Assembly: GCA_017860295.1 (NCBI GenBank)
Contig: JAFNAS010000012.1
Span: forward strand, 186,001 to 250,000
Direction of reading: 5' to 3'
Origin: Bacteroidota bacterium
Lineage (GTDB): Bacteria; Bacteroidota; Bacteroidia; Bacteroidales; Paludibacteraceae
Length of the DNA: 64,000 nucleotides
The position numbers and the translations under genes are program-made. Within the stretch, counting starts at the first letter, position 1. Each line of letters starts with the position of its first letter. The notes beneath the pieces are model-generated. The model made no database searches, had not been told where the DNA came from, and worked only from the letters and a program-made list of their open reading frames with translations. This document shows positions 2,018 to 16,029 of the stretch, in pieces.

Positions 2018-5000
2018 TTAGAATGTTACACTTAATCCAATTAAGTAATTACGTGTTGTAGGTGTGCTAGTTCCTAATGTTAACATACGTTTTAGGTTGT
2101 CACTAAGAGGTACTGCTGCGTTTTCGTTACCCATTGAGTTGGTTTCTGGATCCATTCCTGTTTCATTTTTGTAAGGAGAAAATAATACAAATGGATTTTC
2201 AACGGTACAATAAACACGTAATTTGTCAATTCCAGCGCTTTTTAACCATTTCTGATTGAAATTGTATCCTAGTGTAATAGTACGTACCTTTAAATAAGAT
2301 GCACTAAAATAGCCTAGAGTACTTCCGTATTTTGGATTATCTCCTCCAGCTCCTCCAGGTTTCGGATATTTAGCTCCAGTGTTAGTCGAAGTCCAATAAT
2401 CTACTTTTACGTTGTTATTTGAACGTGCATTCAAGTTATTAAGGTAGCTGCCAGAGCCATAGAGGGTGCTGTTAAGAATACCGCCGCTTTTGAATACTCC
2501 TACTAAGCTCAAATCAAATCCTTTATAAGAAACATTTGTGTTGAAACCTCCAGCAAAATCGGGATCGGTATCTATTATTTGACGATCATCAGCTCCAATA
2601 GCCCTTGTCGGTGTTCCATCGGCGTTGTAGGTACCTGTGTATAGAACCTTAATTAACCCTGCTGCAGTCCCGGGTTCCAAAATGCTCTGATATTTATCAG
2701 TTGTTTGCCAAATTCCTATTTTTTTATAATCATAGATACTATTGATAGAATGACCTACGAACCACCAATTACTTTCGTCTTTAGTGGCTCCCGAAGCAAG
2801 ACTAACCAATTTATTTTTATTTGTATAGATATTGATGCCAGCACTCCAGGTCCAACCATTGAGGTTATCCAATATCACACCATTCAGCGAGAATTCTAAA
2901 CCTTTGTTTTGTGTAGCACCGATATTAGCAGTGTAGCTGCCTATTCCTGTTGAAGCAGGCATATTTACATTTAATAGCACATTATCTGTATTCATTATAT
3001 AGTATTCTACCTTGCCAGATAACCTATTTTTCAAGAGAGAAAAATCAACTCCGAAATTCCATGTTTTAGAAAATTCCCAACCCAATTTAGGATTAGGTAT
3101 CTTAGATAAATAGACACCAGTAGAGTATGTAGTACCATAGTTATAGGGATTTGTAGTTAAGAGTCCTAGCGTACTATAGGGATCAACAGATTGGTTAGAA
3201 GTCTCTCCATAACCTGCAAATATTTTTAGTTTGTCAATAGCCGTAAGGCTTTTCATAAAAGATTCTTCATTGATATTCCATCCGGCAGATACAGCAGGGT
3301 AGGTATGCCACTGATGCCCTGCTGCCAATACGGAAGAAGCATCGGAACGGACAGTGGCACTCAACATATAACGATCATTGTAAGAGTACATTACTCGTCC
3401 CATATAAGACATTAAACCTCTCTGCCAATAATTCTGATACTTGGGGTTGATGGTAACATTCTGTTGACCATATCCTAAATTGTAAAACTGAAAGGCTTGA
3501 GCCGGAATATCTTGTGCTGAAGCAGACGAATACCAGTAGGTGGTTTGCTCAGAAGAATACATAGCGACAGCATTCAGTCGATGAACTTTAGCAAAAGTAC
3601 GGTCATAAGACAACAAGTTTTCAATTGCCCAATTGATTTTATGTTCGTTGCTGATATTGGCACTTGACACGGTAGATGGGGTTCCACTGAATACTCCTTG
3701 TCCCGTGAAGTTGCCATAGTTACTTTGTCGGTAATTCAACCCGATGTTAGCACGATACTTTAAACCTTCTACTCCTGGAATATTGATTTCAGCGAATGCT
3801 GAATTGTAAGAACTAAATGCTCTGGTTTGATCAATATAATTATCACCTAACGCTTTTAATGTTTGTTTTGTGTAGATCCATTCGGCTCCTGATGTCGCCT
3901 TAAGATAGGTTGATTTTGGAGTTCCATCTGTGTTGTACGGGCTGGCAAGAGGAGAAGCTGCTAAAGCGGTACCGGGTCCTAGGTTATTACCGTTCGTTAC
4001 TTGATAACTAGTATTTGTATTGAATCCAAAGTGAAACAGTTTACCTATTAACTGATCTAGAGAATTACGTAAAGAATAGCGTGAATAGTTTTGTAATGGT
4101 ATGACTGATTGGTCTTTGTAATAACTTATTCCAAAATTATAATTTCCTTTTTCGGATCCTCCCGAAATTCCTAAATCGTGATTAGTTACTGTGCCGGTTT
4201 GGTAGAGTAGGCTTTGCCAATCGGTGCTTACATCGTTTGATTCATCCAGAGTATTTGAAACGATATTTGCAGCTTTACGTAAAGCTGCAAATTCAGATCC
4301 ATTCATCATAGGATATTTAGCAAAGACTTTTTTTATGCCATAATAACCACTGTAGGTAACATGAGCGGTTTGTCCTTTTTGCCCGCTGATACTTGTTACC
4401 AATATAACGCCGTTGGCACCGCGAGAACCATAAATGGCAGTAGCCGAGGCATCTTTCAAAATATCAATGCTTTTGATATTGTTGGGATCTATATCTCCGA
4501 TGGATCCGGCAAAAGGTATCCCATCAAGAACAACTAACGGGTCATTCGTGGCATTCAATGAACGAGTACCCCGGATACGAATCTGCATAGAGGAACCTGG
4601 CTTGGTTGAAGTTTGTGACATTTCAACACCTGCAACTCGTCCTTGCAAAGCTCGCGCGATATTAGCAGCAGGCACATCGCGTAGCTTATCTCCATTCATT
4701 GAGGCTACAGATCCTGTTACAGCTTCTCTTCGCTGCGTCCCATATCCTACAACTACAACTTCACTTAATGCCTTTGTGTCTTCTGCTAATGTGATATTAA
4801 TAACCGATTTTCCATTTACAGCTAAAATTTGGGAACTGTAACCGACAAAAGAAAATTCCAATTTAGCATTAGCAGGTACCTGAATCGAATATTTACCGTC
4901 AACATCGGTGATGGTTCCGGAAGAAGAACCCTGAATCCTGACGTTGACCCCGGGGAGGGTCGCATTCGTAGCATCTTTAACAGTACCCTTGACTGTTATC

Positions 5001-10886: not shown

Positions 10887-11340
10887 ATATACGGTCGACG
10901 GTATATTTTAATTGTTCGGAAGTCCTTTCCCGAATGCCTTATTACTGCCAACTTACTTAGTACAACATTATCTCTCGCTATATAAAGATAATATCTTGTA
11001 ATATTTTTATAATAAGCAATTTGACTGTACTATTGTGAAAATGCCGGATGCTGGTTTATCTTTATGTAATCATTTGTCAGTCTTTTGTTGGTTTCCGGCT
11101 TCAAAGATAGCAAGTTGTTACCGTCTTTCAATGATCCAGTATCTACTTTTTCCGTTAATTCAGTTACAAATAAAGCGATTTGGATGTACCTTTGCCATAT
11201 TTCATTGTACATAAGAATTAATTTATGCGGACAGACGTTTACTATTCCACATTTTCCACACTATTTCGTCACAGATTTCTACAATTTTCCACAGTCCACA
11301 CAAGCAATAAAACCACTAATAAACAATAAATTACAGTTTA

Positions 11341-11355
11341 TGGCATATTTATTGC
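11341..11355 (+). promoter_or_regulatory. Candidate sigma-54 (-24/-12) promoter
   Basis: TGGCATATTTATTGC: GG-N10-GC spacing as in consensus TGGCAC-N5-TTGC; about 95 bp upstream of an ORF followed by a sigma-54 activator gene. Confidence 0.6.
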
Positions 11356-11448
11356 GCGGTGGTTATAATCATCAAATTCATTTATCCAATTTTACAAATC
11401 GAACAAACGTGTACTTGAAACATATCAAAAACCATTAAAATTAGAACA

Positions 11449-12324
11449 ATGAAAACATTTAAATTTTATGTAATGATGGCGGCAGTTGCATTGGTAACTG
11501 TATCGTGTGTCGAAAATTCGTCGAAATACAAAGCTGCTATTGCACAACGCGATTCGCTGGCTATGCAAAAACAGGTATTGGATTCCAACTACAGTCAAAC
11601 GCTTACCCTGCTGAATGATATTGAAACCGGATTTTCGGAAATCAATCAGACAGAAAGCGACATGAAGGTCAACCTGAAAGGAGTTGAAAGCTCATCGAAC
11701 AGAAGAGCCCAAATCATAGCCCAGATGAAAGCCATCAAGGAAACCATGGAGAAAAATAAGGCAAAAATTGCTCAGCTCCAACGTTTGGTTGGCAAAAACA
11801 GTAAAGCTGCTGCTCAGTTAGAAGAGACTATCAAACGTCTGCAAAGCGAACTGGATGCAAAAACTGCTCAGGTTCAATCATTGCAAGCCGAACTGCAACA
11901 AAAAAATATCAAAATCACTGAATTGACCACCACGGTTACCGAACAGAGCAAGAATATTGCCGAACAAAGTAGCACCATTGAACAACAAAAAACAACGATC
12001 AAGGGTCAGGATGCAAATCTGCACACTGTATGGTATGTTGTTGCGAGCTCGAAACAGTTGAAAGAAGCTAAAATCGTTACCGGTGGCGGACTCTTCCAAT
12101 CGAAGAAACTTTCGGCTACTGATTTCGATCAAAAAAACTTTACTCAAGCCGACTTCAGAAACCTTTCGTCGATTCCTACCAACAGCAAAAAAGCGAAAAT
12201 TCTCTCATTGCACCCGGCTGACAGCTACAATTTAGTTACCGGTGCCGATAATAAAATAACAATCGAAATAACCAATGCTTCCAAATTCTGGAGCGCATCC
12301 AAATATTTAGTCGTACAAAATTAA
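11449..12324 (+). CDS. Secreted coiled-coil lipoprotein of unknown function
   Basis: 291 aa; lipobox-like VALVTVSC, long heptad-rich coiled coil, conserved-looking C-terminal globular part LHTVWYVVASSKQLKEAKIVTGGGLFQSKKLS. Confidence 0.8.
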   Translation: MKTFKFYVMMAAVALVTVSCVENSSKYKAAIAQRDSLAMQKQVLDSNYSQTLTLLNDIETGFSEINQTESDMKVNLKGVESSSNRRAQIIAQMKAIKETMEKNKAKIAQLQRLVGKNSKAAAQLEETIKRLQSELDAKTAQVQSLQAELQQKNIKITELTTTVTEQSKNIAEQSSTIEQQKTTIKGQDANLHTVWYVVASSKQLKEAKIVTGGGLFQSKKLSATDFDQKNFTQADFRNLSSIPTNSKKAKILSLHPADSYNLVTGADNKITIEITNASKFWSASKYLVVQN

Positions 12325-12346
12325 TTTTTTGATTGTCTGCATTGCA

Positions 12347-12400
12347 AAAAAGGCGCAGCTGTGGTATCTTCACCGATACCGTGGTTGCGTCTTTCTTTTG
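12347..12400 (+). terminator. Rho-independent terminator after the coiled-coil lipoprotein gene
   Basis: AAAAGGCGCAGCTGTGGTATC-TTCACC-GATACCGTGGTTGCGTCTTTCTTTT hairpin plus T-rich tail. Confidence 0.6.
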
Positions 12401-12495
12401 TCGCTCAATCACACTCAGACCGAATTCCGGAATATAAAAACCATGAAACATCCGAACAAAAATATCCACGAAAATTGCTTATTTTTGTTCTTCGT

Positions 12496-13815
12496 ATGAA
12501 ACAGACCATTCTCATTATCGAAGACGATGCCACTTTCGGAACCATGCTCCAAAAATGGTGCTGCCGAAACGGATTCGACGCCGAACTTTGTTCCGACGTA
12601 TTGTCGGCGCAGACTACTTTGGGCAATAAAACGGTCGATCTGGTGCTGACTGATCTACGTTTGCCCGATGGCGACGGCATTCTGCTGTTGCACTGGATGC
12701 GCGATATGAATATGGATACACCGGTGATTGTAATGACCAGTTACGGCGAAATACAGAGCGCGGTGGCTGCCATGAAACTGGGCGCAGAGGATTTTCTGGA
12801 AAAACCGATGAATCCGGCGATTCTAAAGGAGAAAATCGAACAGGCTCTCTCTCTAAAAACAGTTGAGACCAAACCTGCAAAACAGGTCAAACAGAATACC
12901 GATGGAATGGTAATGGGCAAGAGTGCTGTTGCCCGTCAAATGTACGACCATATTCAACGGGTAGCCCCTACCCGCATGTCGGTGCTGATTATCGGCGAAA
13001 GCGGAACCGGTAAAGAGTATGCGGCCCGTATGATTCACGAAAACAGTTCACGGCGCAGCAAGCCCTTTATTGCCGTCGACTGCGGCAGTTTGTCGCGGGA
13101 ACTGGCTCCGAGCGAACTCTTCGGCCACATGAAAGGATCGTTTACTTCCGCCATCGAAGATAAAACCGGCGTGTTTGTGCAGGCCGACGGAGGCACCGTA
13201 TTCCTCGACGAGGTGGGCAACCTCTCGTACGACGTGCAGATACAGCTTTTACGGGCTTTGCAGGAGCAGAAAGTGCGTCCGGTAGGATCGGTGAAGGACA
13301 TCAAGGTAGACGTGCGGATATTAGCCGCAACGAATGAAAATCTGGAAGAAGCAATTGCCGAAGGACGTTTTCGCGAGGATTTATACCATCGCCTCAACGA
13401 GTTTTCGCTCTTTATACCACCCATCCGCGACCGGAAGGGCGATATCGAAATCTTTGCCAACGAATTTTTGCGTCAGGCCAACGAAGAATTGGATAAAAAG
13501 ATAGAAGGCTTCTCTCCCGAAGCAATGGCATTGCTCGAAAAACACCACTGGAGTGGCAACCTGCGCGAACTGCGCAATACGGTGAGACGGTTGGTACTGT
13601 TTGCCTCGAAAAATCAGATTACACCCGACGAGATTCCTGCTTTTTCACTGCAACCGGTGCACGAAGATCTGGCATTACAGCCTGATAATGAACGCGAACA
13701 GATCGAGAGTGTATTGCGTAAAACACGTGGGAACAAGACGCTGGCGGCACAACTGCTGAAAATAGACCGTAAAACGCTCTACAACAAGATGCACCTCTAC
13801 GGCATCAAACTTTAA
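12496..13815 (+). CDS. Sigma-54-dependent response regulator (NtrC family: REC-AAA-HTH)
   Basis: Start chosen at MKQTILIIEDDATFG because the longer ORF start (12361) lies in a terminator; receiver VDLVLTDLRLPDGDG, GESGTGKEYAARMIH, ELFGHMKGSFTSAIEDKTG (GAFTGA loop), FIS-type HTH at C-terminus. Confidence 0.96.
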   Translation: MKQTILIIEDDATFGTMLQKWCCRNGFDAELCSDVLSAQTTLGNKTVDLVLTDLRLPDGDGILLLHWMRDMNMDTPVIVMTSYGEIQSAVAAMKLGAEDFLEKPMNPAILKEKIEQALSLKTVETKPAKQVKQNTDGMVMGKSAVARQMYDHIQRVAPTRMSVLIIGESGTGKEYAARMIHENSSRRSKPFIAVDCGSLSRELAPSELFGHMKGSFTSAIEDKTGVFVQADGGTVFLDEVGNLSYDVQIQLLRALQEQKVRPVGSVKDIKVDVRILAATNENLEEAIAEGRFREDLYHRLNEFSLFIPPIRDRKGDIEIFANEFLRQANEELDKKIEGFSPEAMALLEKHHWSGNLRELRNTVRRLVLFASKNQITPDEIPAFSLQPVHEDLALQPDNEREQIESVLRKTRGNKTLAAQLLKIDRKTLYNKMHLYGIKL

Positions 13816-15994
13816 TTGAAAGAACGGTCATCACATCATTCTTCCAACCATCGTACGATTCTCCGCGCCGGCCATCCATCCGACGCAACGCCTCTGCCGG
13901 ATAGTCCAACAGCACAAACATAGGAAGCATTTTATGGCAAACGGCCTGTGCTTTGCCAAAGTCGTCGTCTGCGAGCGCCTGTTCCAAAAGGGCATAATTT
14001 TCAATCGTAGAAGCCTTAAATAACTCTCTGACCTCTTCGTCATCCTCTTCCAGAAAACTATCGGATGCAGATAAAGCTTCTCCCTCACCAAATATCTCCC
14101 GAAGCGCATCGAGTGTAAACGGCTTGGGCAAAAAAGCTTCAAAACCAAGCTGAATAGCCTTTTCGGAGGTAAAATCGCTATGACCGGTCATCACTACTAC
14201 TGGTACATTTTGAGCTTCAGCCAAAACATCCAGTCCGGTCCGTTCGCCCATTTCCATATCGGTAAGGATAACATCAAAGCCGGTCTCCACCACCTGATAT
14301 CCCAGTCGTACGAGCATGTCGCAGGCCATTTGAGCCACCACCGGATCGTCGTCATACACGGCTATCTTTTTCGTGCCCTTTTTAATGCGTACCTCAGCTT
14401 CGCGACAGGGGATAAACACCTCCACTTCGGTACCCTTCCCAACCGTGGAACGCACCCGAATAGAACCTCCGAGCAGATCGATAAGCCCCTTGACCACATA
14501 CATACCCAACCCAGTGCCATGCGCCAGCGCATTGTTACTCTCTACGCGCGAAAACGGTTCGTAAATCTCTTCCAGTTTGTCGTCTGGGATCCCAGCTCCG
14601 GTATCGCTCACTTCAATGATAAGGCGTTGTCCATCGTAGCCAGTATGGAGTTTTATTGCCCCTTCGCGGGTATATTTCACGGCATTCGACACTAAGTTGA
14701 CAATGATCTGTTTGATCTTCATCTGATCGGAGACAATACGCACTCCATCCGCAGAAAAATCAAAAGCAAGTCCCTTCTTCTGAGCCAGAGGCAAAAACAT
14801 CTGCTCCACCTCTTCGTTCAGATCGCCGAGCGAAAAGGTTGCGTTTGTCAGTTGTAAAGAGCCCTGTTCCAGACTGGAAAACTCGAGCAGATTCTCGAGC
14901 AGTGCCAGAATATGTCGCGCTGAATTTTGCATCGATTTGATGTCCTCGCCCTGCTGACGGCGTAACTCCAGGTAACCCAGAATGGAACCCAGCGGACTCT
15001 TAATATCGTGTGAAACGGAGAGCAACAGTTTGTGACGGCTCTCCATCACCTCCCGAAGTCGTTCGCGAGCCTCTTTGCCTTTGTTTACGTCGTAAATAAT
15101 GAGCAGAATGAAGAGCAATATCAGCCCCAGCGCTACAATACCGCCGATAACCGAAAACGTGTAGTTGCGATTGATCGACTTCTCGCTGCGATCAATGGTT
15201 TCGAGCACCGAATTGAGCGTTTGCCGGTGCAAATCGAGCAGAAGGCCTGCAACCTGAGTGGAGATCTCCCGGTCGGAAGCAATCTGGCGGGCTACCAGTT
15301 GCTCTATCGCCCTCATATTTTTTTCGTATCGTTTTCCGGCTACCAATGCCAGATCGTTCACCTCCGAAAGAATGGGTGCGGGCACATCGGTCGCCACTCT
15401 TACGGTATCTACCCTGACGTTGGAAATAACCATGGTAGTATTTTTTGACGGACTAAACACCTCTCCCAACCGTTTAAAAAAGCCCTTCTTCTTTGGAGCC
15501 GGTTTGTACACCGTATCCTGCTTTACGGTAACTACGCGCGCAGGAGCTACGGGCTGCGGTTTGTAGTTACGAATACGTTCGTTGATAATGGTCAGCGGAT
15601 TTTTGTTTCCCAACTGGCGGTTCAGCTTGGCAATTTCAGCTGTTTGTCGCGCCAGCAATACTTTCATCTGCGCCAGCTTTGCCCGGCCGACCGGTTCGTT
15701 AACAATCAGCGTATCGATCAGCGCATTGATAGAGAACAACCTTTTCCCGAATCTGTTGATATAAGTGCTGTCGCGTGTAGAGACAAAGAGACTTACCGAT
15801 GACTGCGCATCACCGACAGCATAAATCAGTTCGTTGGTGAGTGCCAGTACCCGATGCTGCTTCTCAATTTCCTCCCTTTGGCCGTTTATATTACCCCGCA
15901 TGTTGTAGAGAAACACCACCATAACTACAGCTGCAATACCGGCAATGATATAGAGCAAGGCAGCCTTGAATCGTATTTTACTCTCGATGTTCAT
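13805..15994 (-). CDS. Hybrid sensor histidine kinase with C-terminal receiver and HPt-like domain
   Basis: Start at MNIESKIRF; two TM segments, SVSHDIKSPLGSILGYLEL H-box, N/G boxes, receiver DVILTDMEMGERTGLDVL, HPt-like AVCHKMLPMF; tail overlaps the response-regulator gene by 11 bp. Confidence 0.93.
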   Translation of the reverse strand: MNIESKIRFKAALLYIIAGIAAVVMVVFLYNMRGNINGQREEIEKQHRVLALTNELIYAVGDAQSSVSLFVSTRDSTYINRFGKRLFSINALIDTLIVNEPVGRAKLAQMKVLLARQTAEIAKLNRQLGNKNPLTIINERIRNYKPQPVAPARVVTVKQDTVYKPAPKKKGFFKRLGEVFSPSKNTTMVISNVRVDTVRVATDVPAPILSEVNDLALVAGKRYEKNMRAIEQLVARQIASDREISTQVAGLLLDLHRQTLNSVLETIDRSEKSINRNYTFSVIGGIVALGLILLFILLIIYDVNKGKEARERLREVMESRHKLLLSVSHDIKSPLGSILGYLELRRQQGEDIKSMQNSARHILALLENLLEFSSLEQGSLQLTNATFSLGDLNEEVEQMFLPLAQKKGLAFDFSADGVRIVSDQMKIKQIIVNLVSNAVKYTREGAIKLHTGYDGQRLIIEVSDTGAGIPDDKLEEIYEPFSRVESNNALAHGTGLGMYVVKGLIDLLGGSIRVRSTVGKGTEVEVFIPCREAEVRIKKGTKKIAVYDDDPVVAQMACDMLVRLGYQVVETGFDVILTDMEMGERTGLDVLAEAQNVPVVVMTGHSDFTSEKAIQLGFEAFLPKPFTLDALREIFGEGEALSASDSFLEEDDEEVRELFKASTIENYALLEQALADDDFGKAQAVCHKMLPMFVLLDYPAEALRRMDGRRGESYDGWKNDVMTVLSIKV

Positions 15995-16029
15995 ACGGCA
16001 AAGGTAAAGATAAATAAGAAGAGACAAAA

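Follow-up and report, generated by a model that had tools for sequence, protein, structure and literature searches.

A sigma-54-dependent two-component circuit very probably controls a surface lipoprotein gene in this member of the Bacteroidales. As we propose it, a hybrid histidine kinase (HK) would act through an NtrC-type response regulator (RR) on tandem TTYYACA boxes and the promoter TGGCATATTTATTGC, and so on the lipoprotein gene (LP) and on a second operon. The genes lie in a window of 64,000 nucleotides (contig JAFNAS010000012.1), which was analyzed together with the rest of the source genome (G000) and its relatives. The circuit falls within a known class, the sigma-54 two-component systems. 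The case for it is carried by conservation in relatives and by the upstream boxes, and not by the promoter motif in isolation.

Gene content and conservation of the module

The motif, LP, RR and HK were all confirmed in the sequence where the initial annotation had placed them (Table 1), as was the 11-bp overlap between the tails of the convergent RR and HK genes. RR had been described as a sigma-54 activator response regulator, and indeed its REC, Sigma54_activat, AAA lid and HTH_8 domains all score above the Pfam cut-offs. The loop for sigma-54 contact reads GSFTSA (13135-13152), which differs from GAFTGA at two positions, retains F and T and is shared by 12 of the 13 regulators in the alignment. 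Assignment of RR to the NtrC, ZraR or AtoC equivalogs was rejected, as the scores (371.1, 356.8 and 351 bits) fall below the NCBIfam cut-offs of 558.6, 760 and 714 bits, respectively. HK is likewise the hybrid histidine kinase that it had been called, with HisKA, HATPase_c and REC domains found by Pfam. In the kinase alignment H687 is invariant within a conserved CHKMLPMF segment, and this C-terminal segment is likely an HPt domain. The terminator proposed after LP corresponds to a strong hairpin (-34.3 kcal/mol, z -6.4), and the suggested check for rpoN found the gene in the source genome (PF04552, E 2.3e-51) and also in 20/20 relatives examined. Four other full-length sigma-54 activators are encoded in the genome and could be alternative actors at the LP promoter.

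Table 1. Coordinates of the genes and sites discussed; positions without a locus or genome prefix refer to the window.
Feature	Position	Strand	Basis
Distal TTCCACA box pair, possible extra regulator sites	11245..11260 (11245-11251, 11254-11260)	+	Sequence
TTCTACAATTTTCCACA, candidate enhancer (UAS), tandem TTYYACA boxes 10 bp apart	11277..11293	+	Strict pattern clustering
TGGCATATTTATTGC, -24/-12 (sigma-54) promoter	11341..11355	+	Conserved 8/8 in genus; 23-promoter table
LP, Cbp1-family coiled-coil lipoprotein gene	11449..12324	+	NF052320 match
Intrinsic terminator-like hairpin 3' of LP	12344..12400 (approximate limits)	+	Folding energy
TATTTTTG, housekeeping-type -7 element of RR gene	12480..12487	+	TANNTTTG conserved at -16
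RR, NtrC-type response regulator gene	12496..13815 (ATG 12496, stop ends 13815)	+	Pfam above cut-offs
HK, hybrid histidine kinase gene	13805..15994 (ATG ends at 15994, stop at 13805)	-	Pfam domains
Small secreted protein, 170 aa	L277 (G000:C1:126500-133500) 3426-3938	-	
Outer-membrane barrel, 166 aa	L277 (G000:C1:126500-133500) 2888-3388	-	
Second-operon promoter and boxes	L277, about 4013-4099		
TGGCATAATTATTG before kinase-like gene and rpoN	L214:6169-6184; G001:C4:56045-56060; G006:C3:361118-361133	-; +; -	
-24/-12 matches divergent from HK	L116:7280; L117 (reverse complement) 9035; L118:8188; L120:8751; L123:8613		

LP had been regarded as uncharacterised, a description that has to be dropped. 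By sequence it belongs to the Cbp1 (collagen-adhesin) family of lipoproteins, matching NF052320 (Cbp1_fam_LP, NCBIfam) with 277.8 bits (E 1e-82) against a cut-off of 90. All 22 aligned LP relatives match this model and share the lipobox cysteine, C20, and a homologue occurs in 41 of the 61 genomes searched (own and relatives), mostly in one or two copies. The predicted structure shows an extended coiled coil and, at the C terminus, a beta domain that is modeled well. Fold searches of the PDB with the whole protein and with the C-terminal domain gave no match at E <= 0.001; the best-ranked entries were coiled coils of a generic kind or, weakly, pilins. The family's BF0586 (Cbp1) of Bacteroides fragilis is a collagen type I adhesin (PMC3949742). 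LP shares with it the NCBIfam family, the lipobox and a coiled-coil (Smc-like) body; unlike this sequence-based placement, collagen binding and glycosylation were demonstrated for the B. fragilis protein only (PMC3949742). The same paper does not describe how BF0586 is regulated and mentions neither a promoter nor an operon. The source genome encodes a second Cbp1-family lipoprotein (G000:C12:49110-49952, L040; 35% identity), near which we found no match to HK or RR of the module and no good motif close upstream.

The linkage of lipoprotein and regulator in relatives, on which the initial annotation had made its reading depend, is conserved. LP-RR with convergent HK is present in 8/8 genomes of the genus and also occurs in genera of families f3, f78 and f101 and in a named Bacteroidales MAG (L134). 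Elsewhere in the kinase group, RR is present but no LP was detected. In the LP tree the LPs linked to RR fall into a single supported clade that takes in the unlinked LP of G008, a genome of a sister genus. A scan of genome contigs with the kinase alignment was swamped by unrelated kinases; the close named loci were L134 and L135, and the stretch around the L135 kinase contained neither LP nor RR.

LP might be more than an output and serve mainly as a feedback or sensory partner of HK, a reading that we consider possible but doubtful. CpxP and ZraP are periplasmic proteins that partner their kinases in this manner. Two separate branches of the LP tree contain genes that are linked to sigma-54 kinase/regulator pairs. 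The second of these, a different branch of the LP family, is that of genus g35 (family f6), where in 5/5 genomes LP immediately precedes a more distant sigma-54-type kinase on the same strand; a convergent RR was seen in four of them. This argument draws on gene order only, and LP is retained without HK and RR in G008, just as several HK/RR loci have no LP. A feedback role is compatible with the main explanation, control of LP by HK and RR. Another element, TTCCCG..CTGTGGA, is shared upstream of LP by the f6 loci L220, L221 and L224, where -24/-12-like sites occur about 45-47 bp ahead of LP; the element is possibly an enhancer for the different regulator of f6.

The LP promoter and its upstream boxes

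Conservation of the promoter motif upstream of orthologous lipoproteins, proposed earlier as a check, is complete within the genus. The flanks upstream of LP mostly align poorly, yet TGGCAY-N5-TTG is present upstream of LP or the LP operon in all eight genomes; in three of them it lies ~645 bp upstream, in front of a gene for a small secreted protein that is followed by LP. Transcription is predicted to start near 11367. Across 23 promoters of the system GG, A5, T12 and G14 are invariant, and the position following G14 varies. The GG-N10-GC geometry originally described is thus upheld for the G of the "-12 GC", and fails for its C, which is found in 4/23 promoters. The loci of f101 show a weak -24/-12 match in front of LP.

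Of simulated 848-bp intergenic segments, 40% contain GG-N10-GC, which is worthless as evidence when taken alone, and 0.17% contain TGGCAYN5TTGC. Throughout the source genome TGGCAYN5TTGNA occurs 39 times against a spacing-control mean of 27, and because this excess is only ~1.4-fold, the -24/-12 motif by itself proves little. A genome-wide -24/-12 scan was rejected as sole proof, given an enrichment of only about 1.4-1.7-fold over spacing controls.

All eight genomes of the genus carry TANNTTTG, of a -7 element type known in Bacteroidetes, 16 bp ahead of the start of RR; in the window, the 250 bp preceding LP contain none. RR is therefore probably made from its own housekeeping promoter and LP conditionally. 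Exclusive sigma-54 expression of LP is not general, since L032-L034 carry an additional housekeeping-like TANNTTTG upstream of LP.

Comparison of the system's promoters side by side revealed pairs of TTYYACA boxes at 10-bp spacing. In the window, the proximal pair lies 64 bp from the -24 element; the distal TTCCACA pair has 9-bp spacing and is outside the strict consensus. We searched 22 genomes for the strict pair TTYYACANNTTTYYACA, with the reversed pattern as a control, and obtained 20 matches compared to 4. Fourteen of these are at modules, four are at an operon for a secreted protein and a barrel, and two are apparently stray. Some of these promoters served to define the pattern and match it by construction, so what the search shows independently is that matches are nearly absent elsewhere and that a second operon carries the pair. 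The proximal pair is separated from the -24 element by only 62-64, 73-74 or 83-84 bp, consistent with the helical phasing expected of an activator looping to polymerase (Rayleigh p 2e-6, indicative only, as the promoters are related by descent).

The box pairs also follow the presence of HK and RR. G008 keeps LP (66-67%) and rpoN, but its LP locus lacks both HK and RR, and a whole-genome search at E 1e-40 found no HK. This genome has no strict box pair anywhere and no -24/-12 match upstream of LP. Their joint absence ties the boxes and the promoter to this kinase and regulator.

The boxes could instead belong to another protein, DnaA or a different activator, with the linked RR acting elsewhere, which we judge to be quite unlikely. 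DnaA boxes are TTWTNCACA-like, and by inspection two of the four window boxes fit this relaxed 9-mer; the four other sigma-54 activators are further candidates for binding. Yet the common core is TTYYACA, many boxes (ATTTCCACA, CTTTCCACA) misfit the DnaA 9-mer, and the pairs accompany HK and RR in phase with the -24 elements and are missing from G008. Transcription of LP by the housekeeping sigma factor, with the -24/-12 match arising by accident, is highly improbable: most genome-wide TGGCAYN5TTGNA matches are indeed background, but the 8/8 conservation, the box pairs, their phasing and the lack of TANNTTTG within 250 bp of LP in the window all speak against it.

A second operon and other possible sigma-54 targets

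The initial annotation presented the module as self-contained, which in the strict sense it is not. On contig C1 of the source genome a second operon, encoding a small secreted protein and an outer-membrane barrel, has a promoter near G000:C1:130512-130598 with the same boxes and promoter type, and at least one more operon is thus a predicted target of the circuit. Its promoter was found in G000, G001, G003, G005, G006, G007 and G253, with G001, G003 and G006 recovered by a looser search. The contig of G003 ends between promoter and gene; in G253 the second operon lies directly upstream of the module, each unit having its own boxes. The barrel protein gave a sub-threshold match to OMP_b-brl, and family searches with the small secreted proteins returned nothing above cut-off.

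Several further -24/-12 matches were observed. TGGCATAATTATTG precedes a kinase-like gene and then rpoN in three genomes of the genus, where rpoN itself may be under sigma-54 control; this arrangement was not seen in G007 or G008. TGGCACAGGTTTTGAA is present in both G006 (C4:326258-326273) and G001 (C13:263536-263551). In G006 the gene that immediately follows it encodes a small heat-shock (Hsp20-like) protein and may be a further sigma-54 target. Single matches also occur near HdrC-like and other genes. In other families, genes that diverge from HK and encode small exported, partly acidic proteins have strong matches in front of them; at L118 the contig ends before this gene is complete.

The proposed circuit and known systems

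Sigma-54 control of LP by the adjacent RR, as first suggested, gains support from the -24/-12 element footprinted by conservation, the phased boxes, rpoN, the joint absence in G008 and the conserved linkage. From these features we infer which protein binds the boxes, how phosphate is transferred and in which direction regulation runs. The membrane-bound hybrid HK would sense a signal, and phosphate would probably pass His-Asp-His within HK and then to the Asp of RR. RR, made from its own housekeeping-type promoter, would bind the boxes at 11277-11293, perhaps also those at 11245-11260, and contact RNA polymerase with sigma-54 at TGGCATATTTATTGC via the GSFTSA loop. It would thereby switch on the Cbp1-family surface lipoprotein and, through the same boxes and promoter type, the small secreted protein and barrel. 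Because these three target types all appear to be exported, a role in envelope or surface remodeling is suggested. More tentatively, Cbp1-family lipoproteins may be dedicated partners of Bacteroidales sigma-54 phosphorelays, recruited at least twice and feeding back on the kinase during surface remodeling with the secreted protein and barrel, in a form of sigma-54 envelope surveillance; we think this broader scheme unlikely to hold in full.

NtrBC, AtoSC and ZraSR similarly combine a REC-AAA+-HTH_8 activator with a histidine kinase, upstream activator sites and -24/-12 promoters. In contrast to those systems, RR here scores far under the NtrC, AtoC and ZraR equivalog cut-offs, the kinase is a hybrid with a likely HPt, and the predicted targets are exported surface proteins. 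A survey of sigma-54 regulons in Bacteroidota (PMC12316311) also predicts promoters of the -24/-12 type in Bacteroidia; unlike our case, the excerpted text of the survey names stress chaperones, proteases and ABC transporters as targets and does not mention Cbp1.

We found no report of this kinase-regulator-lipoprotein system in the open-access literature searched, in line with the earlier statement that no characterised system with this arrangement was known. To our knowledge, little has been described of sigma-54 control in Bacteroidota. The compact control circuit seen here looks real and apparently undescribed. Its regulator, likely enhancer, promoters and small target set can be read from the sequence in several families, making the circuit directly testable, and it offers a way into the regulation of a surface-lipoprotein family on which we found one adhesin study.
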